A DNA stretch of 64,000 bases. It comes from Glutamicibacter ardleyensis (GTDB taxonomy: Bacteria; Actinomycetota; Actinomycetes; Actinomycetales; Micrococcaceae). The notes under the pieces were generated by a model that was not told the origin of the DNA, ran no database searches, and saw only the letters and a program-made list of their open reading frames with translations. Position 1 is the first letter of the stretch. Each line of letters starts with the position of its first letter. Of the stretch, positions 29,764 to 56,285 are shown one piece after another. The stretch covers positions 682,001 to 746,000 of the forward strand of contig NZ_BMKX01000001.1 in assembly GCF_014644555.1 (NCBI RefSeq), in the 5' to 3' direction. The position numbers were made by a program, and so were the translations under genes.

Positions 29764-30669
29764 CTAGCGAATCCAGGTTTGAGCCATTTCGACCAGCAAC
29801 GACTGGAACGCGTTCTCCGCTGGCGCCCGAACTCGGTCCCGGCGCTGAGCCAGAACCACACTGCGCGGCGCGGCAGCTTCACCCAGTGACAGAATCTTGA
29901 CCCCGGGATGGTTATTCATCACCGCGGATTTCGGCGCCAAGGCAATACCCAAACCCACGGAGACCATTGCTTGTGCTTCCTGATAATCATTTGCTTGAAA
30001 TGAAATCTTCGGAGAGAACCCGGCAGTGTTACATGTACGCTCTAGAAGTTCGGCCACCGGATGCTCGTTCGCGCGCACGATCCACTGTTCATGGGCCGTA
30101 TCGACCATGTCAATCTCATCGAGCTGCGCAAAAGGATGCTCAACGCCAACCACAAGTACCGTCGGCTCCGTGAACAGAGTCGTCAGCTCAAAGTCTGCAC
30201 GGTTCAACTTGTGCCACTCATATTCCCAGAGTAATCCCAAGGAGATCTCCCCCTTGGAAAGCAGCGACATAAGCTCCTGCAATCTAGTACTTCGCACATC
30301 AAGATTAACCGAAGGGTACAACTTGCGGAATCGGCTAATCACCAACGGCATGAACGAACTCCCGAGAGTAGGGAAAGTCCCTAAGCTCAAGCTTCCGCTT
30401 TTGAGTCCCGCCAACTGATCCAGGTCTGCAATCGCGGCATCCATCTGTTGCAAGATACGCCTCGCATGTGATGCAAGAACATGACCTGCGTCGGTGGGCG
30501 TCATGCCTCGCGCGTGGCGCTGAAGTAGGGGTTGGCCAACCTCTTCTTCGAGTTTTCGCAGCTGCTGGGAAACTCCCGACGGAGTATAAAAAAGTTCATC
30601 CGCAGCCGAGGTGACGGAACCACCCTCGACTACTGCGAGCAATATTTGCAATCTCTTTACGTCGAGCAT
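29764..30669 (-). CDS. LysR-family regulator divergent from the PrpF-TctC operon
   Basis: 301 residues. Helix-turn-helix at residues 15-60 (LAVVEGGSVTSAADELFYTP; SGVSQQLRKLEEEVGQPLLQ), then a substrate-binding domain with SLGTFPTLGSSFMPLVIS. ATG 30669 has GGAGG six bases upstream; the longer frame to 30777 is not supported. It is divergent from the tricarboxylate-transport operon with a 272-base control region, so it probably controls that operon in response to the transported carboxylate. The region carries a direct repeat (CTAATGCATTTTTTGTAA and CTAATACATTCATCTTTAA) that could be a LysR binding site. Confidence 0.88.
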   Translation of the reverse strand: MLDVKRLQILLAVVEGGSVTSAADELFYTPSGVSQQLRKLEEEVGQPLLQRHARGMTPTDAGHVLASHARRILQQMDAAIADLDQLAGLKSGSLSLGTFPTLGSSFMPLVISRFRKLYPSVNLDVRSTRLQELMSLLSKGEISLGLLWEYEWHKLNRADFELTTLFTEPTVLVVGVEHPFAQLDEIDMVDTAHEQWIVRANEHPVAELLERTCNTAGFSPKISFQANDYQEAQAMVSVGLGIALAPKSAVMNNHPGVKILSLGEAAAPRSVVLAQRRDRVRAPAENAFQSLLVEMAQTWIR

Positions 30670-30941
30670 GTCGCCTCCATGTAGCAATACTTCAATATAC
30701 TCCAGAATCACAACATTCACTGGATTCACTTCTAAACTTTCAAGCACTTCTACATCTTCATCGCGCTTATGTGGCAATTCTTGCCCTCGGCATCCCCTAA
30801 GAAGTCTAGAAATTCAGCAATGCTTCAATCTAATGCATTTTTTGTAACTACTAATACATTCATCTTTAACGGATCATCAATACATAACGAACGTGCGGCA
30901 CGTCACAAACGGCGCTCGGCGCGATGATCTCGATAGATTAG
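30670..30941. promoter_or_regulatory. Divergent control region, LysR / PrpF-TctC
   Basis: AT-rich 272-base space between two divergent genes. The tandem pair CTAATGCAT and CTAATACAT (about 30831-30862), 22 bases apart, is the most notable repeat. The PrpF-TctC gene has no clear ribosome-binding site: a TAG stop directly precedes GTG 30942, so the start is forced. Confidence 0.45.
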
Positions 30942-33263
30942 GTGAGTCCAATTAAGCGATTAGTTAAGGCTACGTGGATGCGTGGGGGGACCAGCAAATG
31001 CTGGGTGTTCGAGCGAAGTGCGCTCCAAATCCCAGGCTTTACCGTTGATGAGGTCCTCTTGCGCCTCTTCGGCTCCCCAGACCCGCGCCAGATCGACGGT
31101 GTTGGCGGCGGAAGCTCCACTACCAGCAAAGCCGTCATCCTCAGCCCCAGCAGCGAACCCGGAATCGACGTCGATTACACCTTCGCGCAGGTTGGCATCG
31201 AGCAGGCAGTGGTTGATTGGGGCAGCAACTGCGGAAACTGCTCAGCGGTCATCGCTCCCTACGCAGTGGAACAGGGCTGGGTCAACGCCGTTGCTGGTGA
31301 AGTTTCGGTACGTATCCGTAATACCAACACCGGCCAGGTGCTGCACGAACGCATTGCCGCCCCGGCCGCCGAAGAGCCGGCCGGCACCTACATCCCAGGC
31401 GTACCTTTTCCTGGCGAAGCGGTAGAAATCGGCTTTGTGAATCCCGCTGGAGGAACCACCGGAAAGCGGCTTCCCAGCGGTGAAGCTCGCACCGTGCTGG
31501 ACATACCAACGGTTGACGGTGGCGCATACGAGAATCTCGAAGCTACCCTGATCGACGCTGGAGCCCCGGTGATCATCATCAGTGCTCAGGACGCCGCACT
31601 TGGCGAGGTAGATTTTTCTCTCTGGATCACGCAGTCAACCAGTGAACTAGCGCGCTTGGACCGGATCCGGCGCGCTGGAGCTGTGGCCATGGGCCTCGCC
31701 GTGGACATCGCGTCCGCGCAACGTGCGATTCCCAAGCTCGCAATCGTGGACGCTCCCGGCACCGAGTCGGGATGCGACTTTAAAGTCATGATGCTTTCAA
31801 TGGGTGCACCGCATCCGGCGCTGGCCATCACCGGCAGCGTGGGACTCACCCTGGCCGCCAGAACCCCGGGGACAATCATCGCTTCACTGCTGAGTGGTGA
31901 AGCGGAGGAAAGGCTGCGCCTGCACACTCCCGCCGGCGTCATCGAAACGTGGTACCGAAACATCGACGGGTCCGAGGTCGTGGGAACCACGCGCACTGCG
32001 CGTCTTCTCGCCGAGGCGACCTTGAGCTTCGACCCGGTCATGAGCCCAGCAGACGGCCCGGCGCAGATCCACCTTGCCTCCGAGCTCGTCGAAATCGACG
32101 AACCGTTGATTCCCGATTTCGAGGACACGCATCTGGTTGATCCCCCACCGCATAAGCGCCGCACGGTCTTCGCCTCGGTCGCAGTGTTCGCCGCGCTTGG
32201 CCTTGGCACGACGCTGATCGCCGGAGGGCTGCTCAACCCGCCGGCAACCACCACCGACGGCGATTATGCCGGAGAAACTCTGGAACTGGTTATCCCCTTG
32301 GCAGAAGGCGGCGGCACCGACACCTGGGCTCGCTTCATCGGCCAGGAACTGATCCACCAGATCCCCGGAGTCCCCGGGTTCGCACCGATCAACGAATCCG
32401 GCGGTGAAGGCATCACCGGTAGCAACCGTTTTGCGAGTTCCGCGGATGAGAACGGCACCGAGCTTCTGGTCAGCACCGCCACCACGGTAGTGCCCTGGGT
32501 CTTGGGTCGTGACGTAGTGCGCTACTCCTTCGACAAACTGGAACCGATCATGGTCAACGGCACCGGCGGGGTGATCTACGGACGCACCGAGGCCGGAATT
32601 AGCGACGTCAGCGACTTAGTTGATCGAGACAAGCCACTGGTCTTCGGCGGCATCGCCGCCACCGGGCTGGATCTGACCACTCTGGTGGCCTTTGACCTGC
32701 TGGGAGCCGATATCTCCTCAACCTTCGGCTTCGAAGGCCGCGGACCGGTGAATCTTGCCCTGCAGCGCGGCGAAGTGGATATCGACTACACCACCACATC
32801 CTCCTACGATTCGGCCGTTCGTCCCATCGCCGAAGATGGTTCGGCGAAAGTTCTGATGTCCTTCGGCCAGCTTGATGAAAACGGAAAGGTGGTCCGGGAT
32901 CCAAACTTCCCCAAGGTGCCAACCGTGGTGGAAGCCTACGAGGAAATCCATGGCGAAGCGCCCTCCGGCCCTAAGCTCGAGGCCTACCGGACCCTGCTCG
33001 GCTTGACCTACACCTACCAGAAGGGTTTATGGGCTCCGCACGATGCACCGCCGGAAGCAGTTGAACTGCTGCGCGAGTCGGCGCATAAGCTCTCGGAAAA
33101 CGACGAGTTCAACGACCGCGCCGAAGACATCCTCGGCGGCTACCCGATCGTTGCAGATGACCAGCTTGCCGAGCGAGTCAAGGAAGCCTACACCGTCAGC
33201 GAGGAGACCAAGAGCTACGTCACCAGTCTGCTCAAGGACTCCTACCAAATAGAAATTCACTAA
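30942..33263 (+). CDS. PrpF-family isomerase fused by a transmembrane helix to a TctC solute-binding protein
   Basis: 773 residues in one frame. Residues 1-390 are a full PrpF-family domain (methylaconitate or oxalomesaconate isomerase type): TWMRGGTSKC, RQIDGVGGGSSTTSKAVIL with the candidate catalytic lysine, WGSNCGNCSAVIAPYAVEQG, and MLSMGAPHPALAITGSVGLT. After a basic PPPHKRR comes one helix (about 408-431), then a complete TctC-type binding domain (446-773: LELVIPLAEGGGTDTWARF; LVFGGIAATGLDLTTLVAF; GLWAPHDAPPEAVELL). The positive-inside rule puts the isomerase in the cytoplasm and the binding domain outside. No separate signal peptide or lipobox for TctC. TctA-TctB follows 10 bases later. 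Inferred: substrate capture and cytosolic isomerisation are tied in one protein. A lost stop between two genes is less likely because both domains and the anchor are intact. Confidence 0.88.
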   Translation: MSPIKRLVKATWMRGGTSKCWVFERSALQIPGFTVDEVLLRLFGSPDPRQIDGVGGGSSTTSKAVILSPSSEPGIDVDYTFAQVGIEQAVVDWGSNCGNCSAVIAPYAVEQGWVNAVAGEVSVRIRNTNTGQVLHERIAAPAAEEPAGTYIPGVPFPGEAVEIGFVNPAGGTTGKRLPSGEARTVLDIPTVDGGAYENLEATLIDAGAPVIIISAQDAALGEVDFSLWITQSTSELARLDRIRRAGAVAMGLAVDIASAQRAIPKLAIVDAPGTESGCDFKVMMLSMGAPHPALAITGSVGLTLAARTPGTIIASLLSGEAEERLRLHTPAGVIETWYRNIDGSEVVGTTRTARLLAEATLSFDPVMSPADGPAQIHLASELVEIDEPLIPDFEDTHLVDPPPHKRRTVFASVAVFAALGLGTTLIAGGLLNPPATTTDGDYAGETLELVIPLAEGGGTDTWARFIGQELIHQIPGVPGFAPINESGGEGITGSNRFASSADENGTELLVSTATTVVPWVLGRDVVRYSFDKLEPIMVNGTGGVIYGRTEAGISDVSDLVDRDKPLVFGGIAATGLDLTTLVAFDLLGADISSTFGFEGRGPVNLALQRGEVDIDYTTTSSYDSAVRPIAEDGSAKVLMSFGQLDENGKVVRDPNFPKVPTVVEAYEEIHGEAPSGPKLEAYRTLLGLTYTYQKGLWAPHDAPPEAVELLRESAHKLSENDEFNDRAEDILGGYPIVADDQLAERVKEAYTVSEETKSYVTSLLKDSYQIEIH

Positions 33264-33273
33264 GGAGCGAACA

Positions 33274-35442
33274 ATGCTTGATTCTGCAATGTCCGCATTG
33301 GCTTCGCTGACGGACCCCGCCTTGCTGCTGATGCTGCTGGTCGGCGTGATCGCCGGCTTAGTCATGGGACTCATCCCAGGCCTAGGCGGCACTGCCGCCG
33401 TGGCCATCTTGCTGCCGATTACCTTCGGCATGGAGCCAGCCCCCGCGTTGGCAATGCTCATCGGCGCCCTTGCCGTAGTCCACACCTCCGACACCGTCTC
33501 GGCGGTGCTGCTCGGAGCCCCCGGCTCCGCCTCGGCATCGGTCACGATGCTCGATGGTTATTCCATGGCTAAAAAGGGGCAGGCTAAACGGGCGCTCAGC
33601 CTGGCCTTCCTCTCCTCCATGGCAGGCGGCGTCATAGGCGCCATCGGGCTGACCCTGGCCATCCCGCTGGCTAAACCACTGGTGCTCTCCTTCGCCAGCC
33701 CGGAGCTGTTCATGCTCACGGTGCTCGGCGTGGCGCTGGCCGCCGTGCTTTCCCGCGGAAACGTCATCAAGGGCCTCACCGCAGGTGCCCTCGGACTCAT
33801 GGTCGGCATGATCGGCACCTCGCCGACCACCGCCGAGGAACGCTTCACCTTCGGTTCGCTCTTCCTGGGCGACGGGCTGTCGCTGGTCGCGGTGGCCCTG
33901 GGCGTCTTCGGCCTGGCAGAAATCGCTTCGCGTGCAAGCCAGCGCCGTGGAGACAGCACACAGGTCAAGGTTGATGGCGGCTGGGGCTCGGGCATCCGAG
34001 AATGGCTGACCCACTGGAGCCAGGTACTGAGAGGCGGCCTCATCGGCATCTGGGCAGGCATTCTTCCCGGCGTCGGCGCAACCGCCGGCACCTGGCTGGC
34101 CTACGGCCAAGCGGTAGCAACCGCCAAGGACAAGACCCAGTTCGGCAAGGGCGATCCCCGCGGCATCGTCGGCCCGGAAAGCGCCAACAACTCGGTGGAA
34201 GCCGGCGACCTGATCCCGACCTTCCTATTCGGCATCCCAGGCGGGGTTCCCTCGGCAATGCTGCTGGGAATGCTGCTGACCTACGGCATCCAGCCCGGCC
34301 CGAGCATCATCAACGAGCACCTCGATCTGATGTACTTGATCATCTGGTCCTTCGCGATTGCCTCGGTTCTGGGAGCCCTGCTCTGCTTCCTGACGGTACG
34401 CCCACTGTCCTCGCTGACCAAGGTCCCCTTCGCCATCTTGGCCGCCGGCCTGGTAGTCATCATGCTGCTCGGCTCCTTCCAGGAAAGCGGCCAGATCGGT
34501 GACCTGTGGATCATGCTGCTGCTCGGTGTTGCTGGCTGGCTGCTGAAGTCAACCGGTTTCCCACGCGCTCCATTCCTCATCGGTTTTGTGCTGGCTATTC
34601 CGCTGGAGCGCTACTACTTCCTGACCGACAGCCTCTACGAAGGTTTTGATTGGATGCTGCGTCCGGGCACCATGGTGTTCATCGCAATCCTTGTCCTTCC
34701 AATTCTCTGGAATGCCTTCAAATGGTTCCGCGCCCGCCGCAAGCTCAACGCCGATGATGATTCACTGGCCGAAAGCGCCCCGGATGCCGAAGCTCCGCTG
34801 AAGAACTCGATCTGGTCACTGGTGACCTCCGCAGTACTGCTGGTAGTTTTCTCCGGTTCACTGGTGCTCTCCGCGGGCTATTCCCCAGATGCACGGCTCG
34901 TTCCACAACTGATCGGCTGGCTCGGGGTCATCATGGCCTTGGTGCTTGTGCTTCAGGAGCTGCGCTCACGTAAACGCGTGCTCGCCTCGATGCGCAAGGT
35001 CTCGGTGAGCACCGCGCTTTATGCGACCGCTCCAAACGGGGTCGAACAGCTCGCCACGGGAACCACGGCACTGCGTCCAGGGGGCCATCAGGCGGTGGGC
35101 GACACGATCACCACCACCGGCGGCCCTTCAACCGGTTCGTCAGATCCTCAGCACCGGGCAGTTGATAACGTCGGCAAATTTGGCTGGGGTGCCCGCTGGA
35201 CACAGGATGCCTCCTTCGCCTTCCGCACCTTCGTTTGGATGGGAGGGTTCCTCCTGCTGGCTGGTCTGATTGGCTACCTTGCGGCCATCTCGATCTTCAT
35301 CCCCGCGTTCTTGCTTCTGGTGGCCAGAGCACGAATCAAGACAACGATTATCTACACCATCGTGTTCTTCGTCCTCATGCTTGCGCTGCCTTCTCTGCTA
35401 CCAATCGATCTCCCGCAGGGACTTCTGACCTCATGGCTGTAA
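33274..35442 (+). CDS. Tripartite tricarboxylate transporter, TctA-TctB fusion
   Basis: 722 residues. Residues 1-490 are TctA (about 12 helices; family marks GLVMGLIPGLGGTAAVAILL, GILPGVGATAGTWLAYGQA, GIVGPESANNSVEAGDLIPT and LFGIPGGVPSAMLLGMLLTYG). From about residue 508 a TctB region of four helices follows, interrupted by a flexible Gly/Thr/Ser-rich linker (about 585-640). In most bacteria TctA and TctB are separate proteins. With TctC in the preceding gene the entire uptake system is made from two polypeptides. Start ATG with AAGGAG seven bases before it. Substrate probably a di- or tricarboxylate or its unsaturated analogue, suggested by the PrpF domain. Confidence 0.92.
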   Translation: MLDSAMSALASLTDPALLLMLLVGVIAGLVMGLIPGLGGTAAVAILLPITFGMEPAPALAMLIGALAVVHTSDTVSAVLLGAPGSASASVTMLDGYSMAKKGQAKRALSLAFLSSMAGGVIGAIGLTLAIPLAKPLVLSFASPELFMLTVLGVALAAVLSRGNVIKGLTAGALGLMVGMIGTSPTTAEERFTFGSLFLGDGLSLVAVALGVFGLAEIASRASQRRGDSTQVKVDGGWGSGIREWLTHWSQVLRGGLIGIWAGILPGVGATAGTWLAYGQAVATAKDKTQFGKGDPRGIVGPESANNSVEAGDLIPTFLFGIPGGVPSAMLLGMLLTYGIQPGPSIINEHLDLMYLIIWSFAIASVLGALLCFLTVRPLSSLTKVPFAILAAGLVVIMLLGSFQESGQIGDLWIMLLLGVAGWLLKSTGFPRAPFLIGFVLAIPLERYYFLTDSLYEGFDWMLRPGTMVFIAILVLPILWNAFKWFRARRKLNADDDSLAESAPDAEAPLKNSIWSLVTSAVLLVVFSGSLVLSAGYSPDARLVPQLIGWLGVIMALVLVLQELRSRKRVLASMRKVSVSTALYATAPNGVEQLATGTTALRPGGHQAVGDTITTTGGPSTGSSDPQHRAVDNVGKFGWGARWTQDASFAFRTFVWMGGFLLLAGLIGYLAAISIFIPAFLLLVARARIKTTIIYTIVFFVLMLALPSLLPIDLPQGLLTSWL

Positions 35443-35469: not shown

Positions 35470-35844
35470 ATGGCCATTTTGGCTTGCTATAGCGACACCG
35501 ATGCGGGACGCGCGGCCATACGCCGCGGATTCGCCGAAGCTCACAAGGCTCAAGATTCTTTGCTCGTAGCCAATCTTGAAAAAGATCCGGTCACCGAAGA
35601 TCAGCTGGGCATTGATCTGAACACCCTGGCAGACTTTGGTGTTCCGGTAAGAATCTTGCCGCCCACCGCGACCGTGCATGATGGTGCAGACTTCGTGCTC
35701 CAGGCCGAACAGGAACACGACGTTTCGATGATCGTATTAGGCCTTCGCAAACGCTCACGAGTGGGGAAACTTCTTATGGGGAGCATTGCCCAGCGCATAT
35801 TGATCGAGGCTGACTGCCCGGTGCTGGCGGTCAAAGCAAAATAA
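35470..35844 (+). CDS. Universal stress protein
   Basis: 124 residues, UspA fold: ILACYSDTDAGRAAIRRGFA at the N-terminus and a C-terminal nucleotide-binding motif in MIVLGLRKRSRVGKLLMGSI, then ADCPVLAVKAK. ATG 35470 with AAAAGGAG seven bases upstream, 27 bases after the transporter gene and in the same operon. Short Usp genes are often found at the end of TctCBA operons in actinobacteria; the role there is unknown. The GxGxxGxxxxG ATP motif is changed (LRKRSRVGKLLMGS keeps G-x2-M-G-S). Confidence 0.88.
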   Translation: MAILACYSDTDAGRAAIRRGFAEAHKAQDSLLVANLEKDPVTEDQLGIDLNTLADFGVPVRILPPTATVHDGADFVLQAEQEHDVSMIVLGLRKRSRVGKLLMGSIAQRILIEADCPVLAVKAK

Positions 35845-35952: not shown

Positions 35953-36855
35953 TTAGCTGTGGCGGCCGCGAGTGCGGCGGGCCAAAACTACACCTGCTGC
36001 TGCCAGGAGCAGACCGAGAACCAGCAGCGACATGGCCGTAAAACCAGTGTCAGCCAGGTTGTCCTCTTCCTTGGGCTTCTGCGTCTGCTTTGGTTCCTCA
36101 GAACCATCAACGGACTGCGAAGCCGAAGGCTGATCAGACGTCTCGGGAGGAGTTGGATCCTGTGAAGGATCTTCGCTCTTCTCCGGCGACTGCGTCGGAT
36201 CTTCCGAAGGGTTCTCGGTTGATTCCGTTGGAGTCGACTCACTTGGAGTTGGCTCCGTCGGATCTTCCGAAGGCTCCTCAGTTGGATCCGTAGGAGTCGA
36301 CTCGCTCGGAGTCGGCTCAGGAACTTCGTCTAGGTAGAAGCCGAAGTCGAGGGTTCCGTCGTGATCTCCATCTTCGTTCAGGCCTTCAGACTTGGCCTCC
36401 CAAGTTGAAGAGTCCTCATCTCGATCGGAACCATTTTCCTTGGTCGGCAGGTAGCCGTCCAAAGCATCGGCGGATTCGTCCCGGTCAATAACTACCGTGT
36501 ACGACTGACTATCCTTCAGGACCGGCAGGTCCTTGAAGTTGTAGAAGCCGTTCTCATCGGTGGTTACCGGGCCGACAGGATTGCCGTTGATATCAACGAC
36601 TTCCTTACCGTCCGGACCGATCAGTTTCAGAACGACGCCTTCAATTGGGTCTTCATCGTCATCCTGAATTCCGTTGCGGTCCTTGTCAACCCAAACGTAG
36701 TCACCCAAGGAAACCGAAGGTTTCTCAGTTGGTTCCGTAGGTGCCACAGTCGGCTCAGTCGGCTCAACAGTAGGTTCCGTAGGCTCCACAGTCGGTTCAG
36801 TCGGCTGCGTTGGTTCCACAGTCGGCTCAGTCGGCTCAACAGTAGGTTCCGTCCG
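35953..36855 (-). pseudogene. 5'-truncated cell-wall protein (SdrD B-like domain, LAxTG anchor)
   Basis: About 300 residues remain. From the N-terminal side: EPTVEPTEP repeats, one SdrD B-type domain (LGDYVWVDKDRNGIQDDDE; TTDENGFYNFKDLPV), a Pro/Ser/Thr/Glu linker, then a sorting signal LADTG with a hydrophobic helix and basic tail (RRTRGRHS). LAxTG fits class E sortases of actinobacteria. No signal peptide is present: the frame begins within the repeats at the joint with the LuxR-type gene, and its only start (GTG 36864) is in foreign sequence without a ribosome-binding site. The N-terminal secretion signal and any upstream domains are gone, so the remnant cannot reach the wall. Could be an assembly join instead of a true deletion. 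Confidence 0.7.
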
Positions 36856-38533
36856 ATACAACACGCTGCCGGCTCATCTGGTGGACCAGTTTGCCCGCCG
36901 TTGCAGGCAGGGCCAGGATGAATTTCTCCGCGGCGAGCAAATAGGCGTGCACCGGCCAGAATTCATCCATGTCTGGAGTTCGGGAAAGTTTTGACAGCTC
37001 GCTTCGCGCCAGTTCCGCGTCAAGCATCCGCAGAGCAAGGCAGGTACGCGCCAGGATTGCGTCACGTTCCACCATGTCCTGTCCCCAGCCGACCCGGGAG
37101 ATGTGCTGTTCGTGTTCGCTCAGGTAATCCCTGGCGGTATCTGCGTGGCCTTCCAGCGCATGAAGCAAGGCCAATTTCCCGGCCGGATCCGCAGGCAGGA
37201 ACGCATTGCCGGTCCTGCGCGCAGAGTCCAACGACAGTTCGTAGGACTGTTGCGCTTCCGCGCCTCGCCCCGCCAGGAATAAGCTGCTTCCTGCTTGGGC
37301 ATGGACCAGCGCTGCGAGTGAAGGATTCCCAGTGCTTGCATCGGACGCTTTATGGAGCGCACTGCGCATCCGCAGGGCTGATTCCCCGGCTTCCGCGTAC
37401 ATGCCGTTCATTCTCAGATAGAGCATTTCCATCAGGCCGATGGTGACTGCCTGGGGATCAGGATTCAGGTACAACCGATCCGTTTCATGCCTCAGTGCCT
37501 GGGCCAGCGGGTTATTTGCGTAATCCATCGCCAGGCGAGGAGCCTGGAGCCCGGAGTCATTGCGCATGAACTCGCCCAAGATCCGCAGACCCAGTCCGAA
37601 GTAGGTATTCCTTCCGGTGATGGCCGGCGGAATCCGGGAAGCGAGCTTCATGAACTTCTGCAGATCCAGCAAGAGCAGCTCATCCCACTTCTCAGTCACC
37701 AACCGATTCAGCACACTCCACCGCCGCTGCTCAAGCGCGGCTTCTGCCGTTGCCAGCACCCCGTGCACGCTGGTAGCAGCCTCAAGAGCGGCTGCTTCGA
37801 GAAGCTCCATCCGTTGAGCCCCCGCCAGCTGGACTCGCTCCAGCAGAAGCTCCCGCACCATCGATGGCATCATCCAGTCTTGCTCCGCGTTCTCCTGCAA
37901 AAGCCCGCAGTGGACCAGATCATTCACGGTGTGCGGATCGGCGTGCAAATGGCTGTAGAAGATCTCCACGGTGGCGTCGTCGAAGACCGGCAGGATTGCC
38001 GCTTCCGACAATTCCTTGCCCGGATCACTGTGCGCCAACCACATCGACAATGCGCCACGCAGGGTTTGGCGTGCTGGCTCAACGGAATGCAGGTCGCGTA
38101 CCAGCAGCTTGACCGCTCCAAGCCAGCCCCCGCATTTGCCGTAGATTTCGAGGGCTTCCTCCTCCGATCCAGCGATGCCTCCAAGCATCGCGGAAATTTC
38201 GCCGGCGTTCAGGAGCAGGTCACGTTGCTGGGCAAAAAGAATCTTGGCAGTCAGCGCCAAATGCCAGACCGTATGCTCCGGCGAAAGCACGACTGCTGCG
38301 TAAAGCTCAGGGTCCTGGGAAAGCTTCCGGGAAATCGCTTCAAGTTCCGCGAGTCCTTCGAATTCCCTCGAAGAAAAGTCGTGAACGGTACCCCGCCGGT
38401 CACCGATCCAGGATTTTGCGAACCAGGTCCGCCCAGTGCCTGACGCTGCCCGCACGAGCAAAAGGCGTGATTGGGGATCGGCCCAGCCGGTAAAGCGTCG
38501 CAATGCTGGAGGCATCTGGGTTTCTTCAGTCAC
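36836..38533 (-). pseudogene. 3'-truncated LuxR/MalT-type (LAL-like) regulator
   Basis: About 565 residues. An N-terminal ATPase-like domain has a degenerate P-loop (LLLVRAASGTGRTWFAKSW) and is followed by a tetratricopeptide-like helical region (ALVHAQAGSSLFLAGRGAEA). Proteins of this type normally run to about 850-900 residues and end in a LuxR helix-turn-helix, which is absent. The frame leaves its own sequence after LVHQMSRQRVVSDG and stops three codons into the repeat DNA of the neighbouring cell-wall gene. GTG 38533 with GGAGG upstream is preferred over TTG 38572. Without the DNA-binding domain it cannot regulate. Confidence 0.7.
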
Positions 38534-52555: not shown

Positions 52556-53709
52556 GCAGGCGCCGGCTGCCTAGTGATCTAGGGGCCTGCGGTGGCACGC
52601 GTTGGAACTGCGGTGCGGTGAATATGCGATGCCTTTGACGATGAGCGAGGACCACACTTCCTACCGCCGCATCGTGATTCACCGCCATGGCGTTCACGTG
52701 TTCTACTTCTGACGCAGCCGTCCGCCCTCACCGGCCGGAAATAATCTCGAATCCAGCCGAACCCTGCAGCTGGTTCGAGAGCACACGTTTCATTTATCAC
52801 GGGCCATGCGCGAGTCGAAGGGGCAATGCCAGCATCGCGGCCAGCCAATACTCCGAGCATAATTCCGGCTCCCGAATGCTACGCGCTCGGATCTGGTTCC
52901 TTCTTTCACCTTCATACAGACCCCGCACTTTCGAGGCCTGCTCAATTCGAACGTGAAACAAAGCCAACCAAGGCTTTCTGCGATGCTGGCCAACCGACAC
53001 CCAGTCTCCGGGTCCAACCGAACCAGCCTCATCGTTCCAACCCAAAACCTGATTGCAGGCGTTCAGGCTCTTAAATATTCCCGTACCGCCTAGGATGCAC
53101 TGCCAGCAGGAACACTCGATGTGTGCAGAACCGGCGGTGGCCATCTCGGAAAACGGGGCCTGTCAACAGGCACCTAGCCCTCAAGCAGCAAATCTTGTTG
53201 GTCTATTCGACCGTCACTCATACACTTAGTCGTCCTAGTGCTCAGAGCCCGCGAGCTCCGTTTCTTGGCCCTGCAGCTGCCCAAAACGAGTCTCCTATCG
53301 ACCTGATTTGTATGCTCTATCAAAAAATCGCTTTGGCTTCGGCCACGGACTTCGACACGCGCAAGCCGGCGAGACAACCCCAATGTCTCGCACTGTGACA
53401 AATTTTTTTGCGTCGAAACCCAGAGGTAGGCATAAGCAGAGCTTCAATGAATTGTGTTTTTGGTTAATTCTCTAAAACCTCTGGTCGTGAGACTCGACAT
53501 TCGTCTGTAACTCATTCACCCAAGTGCTCAATTGCAACGTCATAGACCTGAATTCTAGGCAAATTAAGCAAATCTACATACCTCCTCTACTACGCGTACA
53601 TGGTCTTCATTTGTGATCTAGCTTATTGTTTTTTGGAAGCCGGATCATCAAAAATCCGGACCAAGTGACCGGGATTATGCACGCGGCACAACGAGATCTA
53701 GGAATGAAG
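52556..53709. other. 1.15-kb stretch without a convincing gene
   Basis: Several open frames of 60-115 codons exist on both strands, but none has a good ribosome-binding site, family pattern or supporting neighbour. The first 700 bases keep the GC content of coding DNA and may be an eroded gene; the last 300 bases are AT-rich and hold the promoter of the second PrpF gene. Confidence 0.5.
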
Positions 53710-54825
53710 ATGAACATACAAGCCGAATGGATGCGCGGAGGCACCAGCAAGTGCTGGGTCTTTGAAACCGATCACTTGGACTTGACTAGAATTAGCCTAG
53801 ACGAGCTGCTGCCGCGATTATTCGGCAGTCCCGATCAGCGGCAGATTGACGGTGTCGGCGGGGCAACCTCGACGACCAGCAAAGCCGTGATTCTCCACCA
53901 ATCCGCCGATCCGGATGTTGATGTGGAGTTCACCTTCGCCCAGGTTGGCATCGAAGAGGCCACCGTGGACTGGGGCAGCAACTGCGGAAATTGCTCTGCG
54001 GTCGTGGGGCTCTACGCAATCGAAAATGGGTGGGTGGCTCCTCAAGGAGACGTCACCCAGATCATCACCCGCAACACGAACACCAAGCAGATCATCGTTC
54101 AGCTGGTAGACACTCCCGAGGGTGCATTGCCCATCGTTCCGCAGGCTCACATGCCTGGTGTCGCATCTGCCGGATACAAGGTCGGACTCGGCTTTAAGGA
54201 TCCAGCGGGAATGACCACCGGAAGCCTGTTGCCCACCGGCAACGCCGCCGATTCGCTGAGCGTGGACGGTAGAAATTGGACCGTCTCCATGGTGGACGCG
54301 GGAGCGCCCGTCGTGGTTTTCCGCGCCGAAGACCTCGGCTTGGATGCCGGGCGGTATGGCACCTGGACCGGGGATGTCGAACGGCAACTGGACACGTTGG
54401 AAAAGATCCGCCGCGAGGCTGCCGTGCGGATGGGCCTAGCCCCTACCACCGCTCAAGCCGCCCGCGCCATTCCCAAGGTGGCAATCGCCGCCGCCCCGGC
54501 GGATGACCTAGAAAGCGATATCAACGTCATGATGCTCTCCATGGGCAAACCCCACCCCGCCTTGGCGATCACCGGCAGCATCGCGCTGAGCCTTGGCGCC
54601 CGGACCCCGGGCACGGTGCTGCACAGCATCACGGGCGAGATTCCGCGTGCCGCACTGCGACTGCGCACCCCCGCAGGCGTGATCGAAACTTGGAGCGAAA
54701 AACGCGACGGTTCGATGCTGGTCGGCGTGGACCGCACCGCCCGCAGCATCGCCAGCTCCATCATCCACCTCCCCGAGACCCTCGGCAGCGCCGCCGAGGG
54801 CTCACTAGCAAGCGCCAGTTACTGA
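53710..54825 (+). CDS. PrpF-family isomerase (stand-alone paralogue)
   Basis: 371 residues, the usual length for PrpF (2-methylaconitate isomerase / 4-oxalomesaconate tautomerase). It follows the N-terminal domain of the PrpF-TctC fusion motif by motif: AEWMRGGTSKCWVFETDHL, RQIDGVGGATSTTSKAVIL, VDWGSNCGNCSAVVGLYAIE and MLSMGKPHPALAITGSIALS. ATG 53710 has AGGA six bases upstream; the frame opens earlier at 53626 without support. It ends 11 bases before a MatC-like permease, so isomerase and carboxylate carrier are again paired, this time as two proteins. No prpB, prpC or prpD is nearby, so methylcitrate-cycle function is unlikely. Confidence 0.9.
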   Translation: MNIQAEWMRGGTSKCWVFETDHLDLTRISLDELLPRLFGSPDQRQIDGVGGATSTTSKAVILHQSADPDVDVEFTFAQVGIEEATVDWGSNCGNCSAVVGLYAIENGWVAPQGDVTQIITRNTNTKQIIVQLVDTPEGALPIVPQAHMPGVASAGYKVGLGFKDPAGMTTGSLLPTGNAADSLSVDGRNWTVSMVDAGAPVVVFRAEDLGLDAGRYGTWTGDVERQLDTLEKIRREAAVRMGLAPTTAQAARAIPKVAIAAAPADDLESDINVMMLSMGKPHPALAITGSIALSLGARTPGTVLHSITGEIPRAALRLRTPAGVIETWSEKRDGSMLVGVDRTARSIASSIIHLPETLGSAAEGSLASASY

Positions 54826-54836
54826 GGAGACGAACC

Positions 54837-56285
54837 ATGACTAAAACAGCTTTTGAGCCTGCTCCCCCGACCGAAAATGATGAGATTGTCGTTCGTACCG
54901 TGAAGCCGCGGCGCAACCGCCGCGCCACGTTGATCACCATAGTCACGATCGCGTTCCTCGGTCTGCTGGCCGCCGTCTTCGGTCCCGGCATCTTCACGCC
55001 TTCTACCGGCGCCGACCCCGCAACTTCGATGACCGCGGAGCAGATCATCCCGCTGGTGGTCCTCGTAATAATGTTCATCGTCGCCACCAAGTGGCCGGTG
55101 AATATCGGTGTCATGGGGCTGGTGGCCGCCTTCGGCATCGGTTACTTCATGCTCGGCATGAGCGATAAGGAAATCCTCGCGGATTTCCCCGCAAGCATCG
55201 TCTTGACCATCATCGGCGTCACCTACTTCTTCAGCATGGCCCAGCACAACGGGACCATCGACATCATCGTGCGCAACTGCGTGCTGCTGGTACGTGGCAA
55301 GACAATGCTGCTGCCGTGGGTGTTCTTCCTCGTCGCCGCTGCGCTGACCTCGCTGGGCACCTTCTCGCCAGCAGCGGTCGCGTTGCTGGCCCCGGCCGCT
55401 ATCGGCTTCGCCTACGAGTCGCGGATCAACCCGCTGCTCATGGGCGCCTTCATCATCAACGGCGCTCATGCCGGCGGCTTTTCGCCACTGTCTGTTTCCG
55501 GGGTTTTGGTGCACGATATTGCGCTGGAAAATGGGTTCCCCATCTCTCCTATCGCGCTCTTTGTCGCCAGCTTCGTCATCAACCTGATTCTCTCGGTATT
55601 AACCGTTGCGGTGTTCGCCTTGCTCGGCAAGATACGCGAAGGTGACGGCGTGGCGAATTCCGACCTTGACGATACCCGCAGCACTCGCCCACGTGGCCAG
55701 CAAATCTACACGTTGTTGTTGATTGGAGCGATGCTCGTATGCGCACTGGGCTTCGGATTGCCGATCGGCTTCGTCGCCCTGAGCGCCGGACTGCTGCTGG
55801 CACTGCTGAACATCAAGGATCAGCATAAATTCGTCGCCGGGATCTCTTGGTCAACCGTCCTGCTCGTAGCCGGCATGATCACCTATGTCTCGCTACTCAC
55901 GCACGTTGGCGTCATCGACACCCTGGCCCACAAGGCTTTGGCCTTGGGCGCACCGATACTGATCGCCCTGGTGCTGTGCTACGTCATTGGCGTTGGTTCG
56001 GCTTTCGCCTCCTCCACCGCCCTGTTGGCCGCTTTCATCCCACTCGCCGGACCGTTGCTATCGGTCAGTTCGCTCAGTGCCACCGGCACGGTCGCTGCCA
56101 TCGCCATCGCAGCAACCGTCGTGGATGTTTCGCCCTTCTCCACCGCCGGCGCTCTGGTCGTTGCAAACGTGAAGGAAATTCATCGCCAGCGTGTCTACCG
56201 ACAGCTGATGATGTACGCTGGCGCCGTGGTGCTGGTCGCGCCCGCACTGGCTTGGGCCTTGCTGGTGCCAACCGGTTTCATGTAA
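54837..56285 (+). CDS. MatC/SLC13-like dicarboxylate permease
   Basis: 482 residues, 11-12 helices. The N-terminal half matches the MatC_N pattern: KWPVNIGVMGLVAAFGIGYF, LGMSDKEILADFPASIVLTI and VTYFFSMAQHNGTIDIIVRN. The second half has two helix-loop repeats ending in VDVSPFSTAGALVVANV. MatC carries malonate in rhizobia; here the cargo is more likely an isomerisable unsaturated di- or tricarboxylate, given the PrpF partner. ATG 54837 has GAGGAG seven bases upstream; the longer frame to 54690 overlaps the PrpF gene and is rejected. It is followed by a strong terminator. Confidence 0.88.
   Translation: MTKTAFEPAPPTENDEIVVRTVKPRRNRRATLITIVTIAFLGLLAAVFGPGIFTPSTGADPATSMTAEQIIPLVVLVIMFIVATKWPVNIGVMGLVAAFGIGYFMLGMSDKEILADFPASIVLTIIGVTYFFSMAQHNGTIDIIVRNCVLLVRGKTMLLPWVFFLVAAALTSLGTFSPAAVALLAPAAIGFAYESRINPLLMGAFIINGAHAGGFSPLSVSGVLVHDIALENGFPISPIALFVASFVINLILSVLTVAVFALLGKIREGDGVANSDLDDTRSTRPRGQQIYTLLLIGAMLVCALGFGLPIGFVALSAGLLLALLNIKDQHKFVAGISWSTVLLVAGMITYVSLLTHVGVIDTLAHKALALGAPILIALVLCYVIGVGSAFASSTALLAAFIPLAGPLLSVSSLSATGTVAAIAIAATVVDVSPFSTAGALVVANVKEIHRQRVYRQLMMYAGAVVLVAPALAWALLVPTGFM

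Follow-up and report, generated by a model that had tools for sequence, protein, structure and literature searches.

Whether a solute-binding receptor and an enzyme acting on its ligand can be carried on one membrane protein is the question raised by a stretch of DNA from Glutamicibacter ardleyensis (RefSeq assembly GCF_014644555.1, contig NZ_BMKX01000001.1, positions 682,001 to 746,000 of the forward strand; the whole stretch of 64,000 nucleotides is called the window hereafter). The original prediction, made from the letters and their translated frames, held that one intact frame joins a complete PrpF isomerase of residues 1-390, a membrane helix and a complete TctC solute-binding domain. 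Indeed, positions 30942-33263 of the plus strand form a single open frame from a GTG start to a stop codon, encoding 773 amino acids with zero internal stops (Table 1). The frame, the helix and the TctC part of this architecture stand, but the PrpF domain ends near residue 360 by Pfam and not at 390. The PrpF half matches PF04303 at residues 8-358 in a Pfam scan (262.1 bits against a cut-off of 27) and, in the PDB, 2pvz, 5k87, 3g7k and 6p3j. Its catalytic residues, Lys63 in a TSK motif and Cys97 in an NCGN motif, are kept in all nine fused sequences examined, a count that left out locus L065 with its broken PrpF half.

The C-terminal half is named TctC-like because it does not reach the Pfam threshold: TctC (PF03401) stayed above E 0.001 when the whole protein was scanned, and scored 21.9 bits (E 1.4e-4) against a cut-off of 27 when this half was scanned alone. 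A profile of its relatives, searched against the PDB, retrieved TctC/Bug proteins (BugD 2f5x, E 8.9e-9; MatC 6hke, E 1.9e-8). The AlphaFold2 model of the half has a mean predicted local distance difference test score (pLDDT) of 93.9, and the first 17 PDB chains matched by it are of the TctC/Bug type, all at E <1e-12 with 6hke best (E 2.3e-15); 2dvz, one of these 17, carries just the label 'periplasmic transporter'. Judged by profile search and predicted fold, this half is a TctC-type receptor, divergent within the family. In the full-length model (pLDDT 86.9; predicted template modelling score, pTM, 0.58) the PrpF and receptor parts are ordered, and the PDB matches are 2pvz for PrpF (E 5e-32) and, lower, 2dvz and BugD (E 1e-15 to 1e-14). 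Since the pTM is low, the mutual placement of the two domains is not predicted.

Distribution and descent of the fused gene

The fused frame is shared by independent genomes. In a kinship search of 118 genomes, the source genome among them, 38 had some match. Five of these, besides the window's own, match near the whole length in a single frame with 66-83% identity, and each of the six full-length frames, the window's included, has verified start and stop codons. Within the genus the TctC half is found in 6 of 18 genomes, fused in five and frameshifted just past the helix in the other (G010). In named genomes a scan found 110 relatives of the TctC half, of which the best 80 were kept; seven of these 80 loci are fused, namely Arthrobacter sp. 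MYb213, Glutamicibacter nicotianae, Arthrobacter spp. VKM Ac-2550 and SF27, Micrococcaceae bacterium RIT 802, Paeniglutamicibacter psychrophenolicus and A. crystallopoietes BAB-32, whose PrpF half carries a frameshift. One more locus, in Arthrobacter sp. S41 (L063), holds a frameshifted copy. Distinct genomes with the fused frame number ten (the window, L041, L042, L051-L056 and L065, in the last of which the PrpF half is frameshifted). The same ten are the window, G002 and G016 plus the seven named loci, G001, G015, G034 and G010 being counted once with the named records. In the eleventh genome, L063, the fusion is frameshifted just past the helix, so that PrpF still shares its frame with the linker and helix. 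At wider range, in an order-level sample of 396 genomes, ten carry the TctC subfamily, fused in the window's own genome and G034 and in separate frames in eight, and in a phylum sample of 396 genomes, 19 have some match, with a whole-protein match solely in the window's own.

Both halves are under purifying selection between the window and L051 (nonsynonymous and synonymous divergence, dN and dS, of 0.156 and 1.244 for PrpF and of 0.050 and 0.917 for TctC). The fear attached to the original prediction, that close relatives would have two genes and that the stop codon between them had been lost here by error, is not borne out: the close relatives are fused, and separate prpF and tctC genes occur in more distant ones. 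The fusion is real, inherited, conserved and unusual, and no sequencing error. No PrpF-TctC or other receptor-isomerase fusion was found described in the literature searched, which is weak evidence of absence as most subscription journals were out of reach.

Some candidate fusions were rejected. A tblastn piece on a Sinorhizobium sojae plasmid, spanning residues 3-772, would have been an independent fusion; it consists of two neighbouring genes that share a frame but are parted by a stop codon. The long frames of G054 (803 amino acids) and G037 (784 amino acids) come from loci that carry separate genes, and the long PrpF frames of L046, L047 and L048 have no second Pfam domain.

The fused genes also group together by descent in two quick trees made without bootstrap and scored by the Shimodaira-Hasegawa-like approximate likelihood ratio test (SH-aLRT). 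Sixty-nine rows entered the TctC-domain tree (the window, L041, L042, plus L051-L121 minus L099, L113, L115, L118 and L120, which were dropped as fragments or distant; L122-L130 were unused), and in it the fused genes and the frameshifted copy form one clade of 11 rows (SH-aLRT 92). In the PrpF tree of 71 rows, from which L065 was omitted as broken and in which the frameshifted copy was kept, they again group as a single clade, here of 10 rows (SH-aLRT 98). The sister clade comprises 15 separate-gene loci in the order prpF-tctC-tctA. Their best tctC start lies 65-108 bases beyond the prpF stop, and prpF and tctC share a frame in nine of the 15. Such adjacent same-frame genes point to a lost stop codon, and the fusion likely originated in this way. 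It would have arisen once in Micrococcaceae, inside an uptake cassette of LysR and prpF-tctC-tctAB; S. sojae has the same gene order with a divergent LysR, as separate genes.

Two further receptors stand apart in these comparisons. At the Kocuria rosea locus (L057:4560-7125), TctC is sister to the fused clade and PrpF falls in a carrier-linked paralogue group, hinting at replacement of one half. An Anaerolineales protein of 1102 amino acids (L125:2216-5524, minus strand) has an NMT1-like receptor domain by Pfam, followed by two tandem TctC-like domains that were recognized by the analysis's own TctC profile; Pfam TctC did not pass.

Anchor, linker and internal starts

The junction helix contains the highest Kyte-Doolittle 19-residue window of the protein (2.11 at residues 409-427), and it is flanked by K-R-R before and an acidic stretch after. 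By the positive-inside rule these charges predict the enzyme inside and the receptor outside, as had been proposed. Outside the 50-row clade to which the fusion belongs, most actinobacterial receptors have a leader ending in a lipobox (LAGC, AAGC or similar; the GAAC leaders of L104 and L105 are uncounted by the lipobox pattern), among them the Micrococcaceae rows L110 and L121. Inside the clade a hydrophobic helix that does not end in a lipobox follows a tail rich in proline and acidic residues, the exceptions being L063 (a fragment), L082 (leader out of frame as read) and L083 (where the pattern fires within the helix). A lipoprotein anchor for the fusion was rejected, as no lipobox occurs in the fused clade. 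As to a cleaved signal between the domains, which had been named as a danger to the proposal, the anchor has no lipobox cysteine and, by eye, the alignment has no conserved A-x-A site; cleavage may nonetheless occur. The nearest separate receptors already lack a lipobox and have an N-terminal anchor helix, so their N-terminus is predicted to stay in the cytoplasm. On this sequence comparison, the fusion appears to have hung the enzyme onto the cytoplasmic end of a pre-existing receptor anchor.

The route of insertion may be the twin-arginine translocation (Tat) pathway. All 25 Micrococcaceae rows close to the fusion (the window, L051-L062, L064-L074 and L099) have Arg-Arg ahead of the helix and lack a lipobox, and the motif at the anchor, H-(K/S/R/A)-R-R-(T/S)-V, resembles the consensus of a Tat signal. 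TatC is encoded in the genome, and the Arg-Arg precedes an uncharged hydrophobic helix. These features suggest Tat export of the fusion.

The linker between PrpF and the helix is 39-69 residues long by our own measure and has little sequence conservation except near the Arg-Arg. Among the ten fused genes it has seven different lengths with the frame kept, which is partly circular as the in-frame state defines the fused set. Differences at the three codon positions of the linker are 16/9/31 between the window and L051 (P 0.00057) and 11/6/23 between L041 and L042 (P 0.0014), the two closest pairs, and 8/8/19 in one pair of the other sub-clade (P 0.0085). This third-position excess supports translation of the linker itself.

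Several observations weigh against this picture of an anchored fusion protein. The anchor is poorly supported by the model: the helix assigned by DSSP to residues 407-431 of the full-length AlphaFold2 structure lies inside a region, 368-434, that is nearly all below pLDDT 50, and the anchor thus rests mainly on hydropathy and conservation. Of the 13 Nocardioides rows, 12 have no such Arg-Arg pair, so Tat is no feature of the family as a whole. The coding signal of the linker is non-significant in five of eight comparisons (P 0.26, 0.15, 0.075, 0.28 and 0.26). L053, L054, L055, L056 and L065 keep an in-frame ATG or GTG with a ribosome site of -8.8 to -10.8 kcal/mol, about 25-30 codons past the end of PrpF at the place of the old tctC start. 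Across the coding sequence of 24 loci, 1398 other in-frame internal start codons were scored, and just 12 of them reach -8.8 kcal/mol. Finally, a TTG at codon 361 of the window's gene, with a dG of -5.9, is as strong as the tctC starts presumed for the 15 sisters with separate genes (dG -3.0 to -5.9), and a weak internal start may thus operate there too.

Because of the strong ribosome site, both products are expected in L053-L056 and L065, which probably make the fusion and a free TctC. The same site also supports the idea that the fused frame is largely incidental. Free TctC would then come from internal initiation, or from cleavage by a protease close to the anchor, and would work as an ordinary anchored receptor, with read-through being minor or tolerated. 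The intact TctC half of L065 beside its frameshifted PrpF half and the TTG of the window, no weaker than the sisters' presumed starts, would also fit it. However, the sub-clade of the window (the window, L051, L052, L041 and L042) has no conserved internal start: its candidates range from dG +1.2 to -5.9 at gene-specific positions, and the window's TTG has no counterpart in L051. The seven in-frame linker lengths, with the circularity just mentioned, the frameshifted L063 with its linker and helix remaining in the PrpF frame, and the coding-type change of the linker in the closest pairs further argue against it. An incidental frame seems unlikely, though well short of negligible, and a conserved stop-loss fusion that yields a single-pass membrane PrpF-TctC protein for uptake of a trans-aconitate-type acid, mainly by tethering, is on balance probable.

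Substrate, tethering and coupling

In 71 of the 80 named loci the gene immediately upstream of TctC is PrpF (the nine without it being L113, at a contig edge, L115, L118, L120, L124, L125, L126, L127 and L129), and in 77 of the 80 the gene immediately downstream is TctA. Neighbour clusters were compared in 52 loci, and 14 recurred in at least four of them, the cassette's own two counted; their representatives were scanned with Pfam. LysR is the commonest neighbour (37 loci), followed by Usp (12) and a CitMHS/MatC-type carrier (9), and the other Pfam-named clusters, in four loci each, are a major facilitator superfamily (MFS) protein, an ATP-binding cassette ATPase, a FolD-type and an FTCD_C-type protein. 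Pfam leaves five of the 14 unnamed, and some of these at least are antisense frames. No catabolic enzyme other than PrpF was found among the recurring clusters that Pfam could name in these 14 clusters and 52 loci. A LysR, a PrpF enzyme and an importer with no other recurrent catabolic enzyme suit a substrate whose isomer is a central metabolite.

Known PrpF enzymes supply the analogy. SoPrpF, the PrpF of Shewanella, isomerises trans-aconitate into cis-aconitate, and growth on propionate alone was not supported by variants of its residues C107 and K73 (PMC5690661). In Bacillus velezensis the tar operon encodes the LysR regulator TarR, the PrpF-superfamily aconitate isomerase TarA and the importer TarB (PMC11495376). 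Among its references on plant-beneficial species of its trans-aconitate-using isolates, this paper cites a study of Glutamicibacter arilaitensis (PMC11495376), which hints that such an isolate may have been among those users. By this analogy, trans-aconitate or a close unsaturated tricarboxylate would be the likeliest substrate. The genome has two PrpD-family genes, and PrpF is thus not obviously required for a methylcitrate cycle.

Scores and neighbours also speak against this substrate. The PrpF half reaches 208.6 bits with the PrpF equivalog model TIGR02334 (cut-off 440.55) and 237.2 bits with the 4-oxalomesaconate tautomerase model NF033377 (cut-off 440); as both NCBIfam cut-offs are unmet, its reaction is not assigned by homology. 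The FolD- and FTCD_C-type folate enzymes recur upstream in four of 52 loci, and another type of importer, CitMHS/MatC, likewise pairs with PrpF. The same architecture could thus serve methylaconitate, methylitaconate-like acids or 4-oxalomesaconate, an option as improbable in our view as an incidental frame. It draws on the nearest solved structures (2pvz, 3g7k and 6p3j), which are PrpF-fold enzymes with those activities, on the tautomerase model outscoring the PrpF model, both far under cut-off, and on one LigB-family gene in the genome. The LigB family is broad, however, and this gene sits elsewhere in the genome; no Pfam-named recurring neighbour cluster belongs to the methylaconitate, methylitaconate or oxalomesaconate pathways.

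With a trans-aconitate-like acid as substrate, the preferred scheme would run as follows. In the product, a cytoplasmic PrpF would be joined through a flexible linker to an anchor helix, either Tat-like or inserted by Sec, with a TctC-like domain outside. The neighbouring TctA gene, which has a TctB-like end, would complete a tripartite tricarboxylate transporter made of two polypeptides; the two-polypeptide system for uptake and first step, as originally proposed, is retained here. The TctC domain would capture the acid outside, TctAB would import it, and the tethered PrpF would isomerise it to cis-aconitate for the tricarboxylic acid (TCA) cycle. Tethering may replace a lipid anchor without lipoprotein processing, fix one enzyme per receptor and keep isomerisation local to the importer. 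Because SoPrpF is a homodimer (PMC5690661), the fusion is proposed to form a membrane dimer bearing two receptors. We infer the topology, the intactness of the fusion in the cell, the substrate and the benefit from sequence, models and analogy.

The fusion could do more than tether. A vectorial unit, in which receptor occupancy or TctAB docking controls the isomerase on the same chain or hands substrate to it, is improbable but, if true, would be the first uptake system with receptor and first enzyme as one functionally coupled transmembrane protein. Functional coupling in the sense that occupancy or docking alters the activity or position of the isomerase, which then senses or channels substrate across the membrane, is a shade less probable still. 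A same-pathway enzyme and receptor are predicted to have stood on opposite sides of one helix at a fixed ratio since the ancestor of the fused clade, and a dimer like that of SoPrpF (PMC5690661) would pair two receptors. However, the linker is below pLDDT 50, variable in length and poorly conserved, unlike rigid signalling linkers, and no signalling domain was found by Pfam in the fusion. Since the linker is variable and of low confidence, a tether is favoured over an allosteric rod or rigid signal path. The weakest alternative, an artefact of a misread stop or a decaying gene, has frameshifts in L063 (fusion and tctAB), L052 (tctAB) and L065 (PrpF) to its credit, but it is scarcely credible in view of the intact frame in independent genomes and the purifying dN/dS figures of both halves. 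The tctAB genes of Arthrobacter sp. S41 (L063) and Glutamicibacter nicotianae NBRC 14234 (L052) are frameshifted, by decay or sequencing errors; with tctAB affected as well, programmed frameshifting of the fusion in L063 seems unlikely.

Comparison with known systems and the surrounding locus

The transporter is of a known kind; what is new is a tripartite tricarboxylate system whose receptor is fused to a PrpF isomerase. TctABC likewise has a TctA-type permease, a TctB-like part and a TctC/Bug-fold receptor encoded together, and rare TctA-TctB fusions are mentioned by Rosa et al. 2018 (PMC5812351). In contrast to TctABC as presented there (PMC5812351), the receptor here is anchored by a helix that is not of the lipoprotein type and is fused to an enzyme predicted to be cytoplasmic, and the TctC and TctB parts are under their Pfam cut-offs. 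The tar operon shares with the window a divergent LysR, a PrpF-superfamily isomerase and an importer in a self-contained cassette, and feeds cis-aconitate to the TCA cycle; its importer TarB is an MFS protein and all its genes are separate (PMC11495376), whereas the importer here is TctA-type and the isomerase activity is predicted. The fold and Lys73/Cys107 of Shewanella PrpF (2pvz, 2pw0, 5k87) are common to the window, but that protein, which acts in the methylcitrate cycle, was solved as a PrpF-only homodimer (PMC5690661), whereas the window's PrpF half stays below the equivalog cut-off given above. Natural and genetically simple, the fusion would place capture, import and first metabolic step in two polypeptides, and it indicates TctABC-type importers as partners of the PrpF family, beside the MFS importer known from Bacillus.

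Membrane-anchored TAXI receptors are reportedly known (Roden et al. 2023). TAXI-GltS is likewise a secondary-transport receptor tethered by fusion, but its partner is a permease and not a post-uptake enzyme; its authors suggest that tethering aids cells without a periplasm (PMC12344293). Internal Tat signals are known in actinobacterial Rieske proteins, which likewise have an internal Arg-Arg motif before a late helix and a domain outside (PMC5449189). Sec-inserted helices come first in the Rieske proteins (PMC5449189), whereas a soluble enzyme domain comes first in the window's protein, for which the motif suggests use of Tat. The stages of the fusion are extant in relatives as separate genes, a fusion with the old ribosome site and a fusion without a conserved one. 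Survival of these intermediates makes stop-codon loss directly testable as a route to new transmembrane proteins, and the same stages let the gain from tethering an enzyme to a transporter be probed.

Table 1. Features of the fused gene and its neighbours in the window
Feature	Positions	Strand	Basis
Divergent LysR-family regulator	29764..30777	-	Frame as listed; Pfam match
Presumed shared promoter region between regulator frame and fusion	30778..30941	.	Position alone
PrpF-family isomerase domain, residues 1-358	30942..32015	+	Pfam PF04303; PDB matches; catalytic residues mapped to SoPrpF
Catalytic Lys63	31128-31130	+	Aligned to SoPrpF K73
Catalytic Cys97	31230-31232	+	Aligned to SoPrpF C107
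Linker, residues 359-405	32016..32156	+	Low model confidence; length and sequence differ among relatives
Arg-Arg (406-407) and single hydrophobic helix (about 408-431)	32157..32234	+	Resembles a Tat signal anchor; lacks a lipobox
TctC-like solute-binding domain, residues 446-773, plus stop codon	32277..33263	+	Profile search; AlphaFold2 fold
TctA permease with C-terminal TctB-like part	33274..35442	+	Pfam TctA 424.8 bits
Small Usp-family protein, downstream	35470..35844	+	Pfam; its cluster in 12 of 52 loci

The adjacent gene had been read as a TctA-TctB fusion; its TctA part is confirmed by Pfam (Table 1), and its C-terminal part is TctB-like, with 21.9 bits under a cut-off of 29.1. The true start of the divergent LysR regulator is probably the Met at residue 37, as judged from where the family matches begin. 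A second PrpF gene adjoins a MatC_N/CitMHS-type carrier at positions 53626-56285 (plus strand) of the window and forms another PrpF-importer pair. It is 51% identical to the PrpF half of the fusion, and the genome has exactly these two PrpF genes, both in the window. The frame at 35953-36864 on the minus strand likely encodes a cell-wall surface protein: it has a tract of EPTVEPT repeats and an SdrD B-like domain (64.1 bits), and an LADTG-like sorting end precedes its hydrophobic tail.

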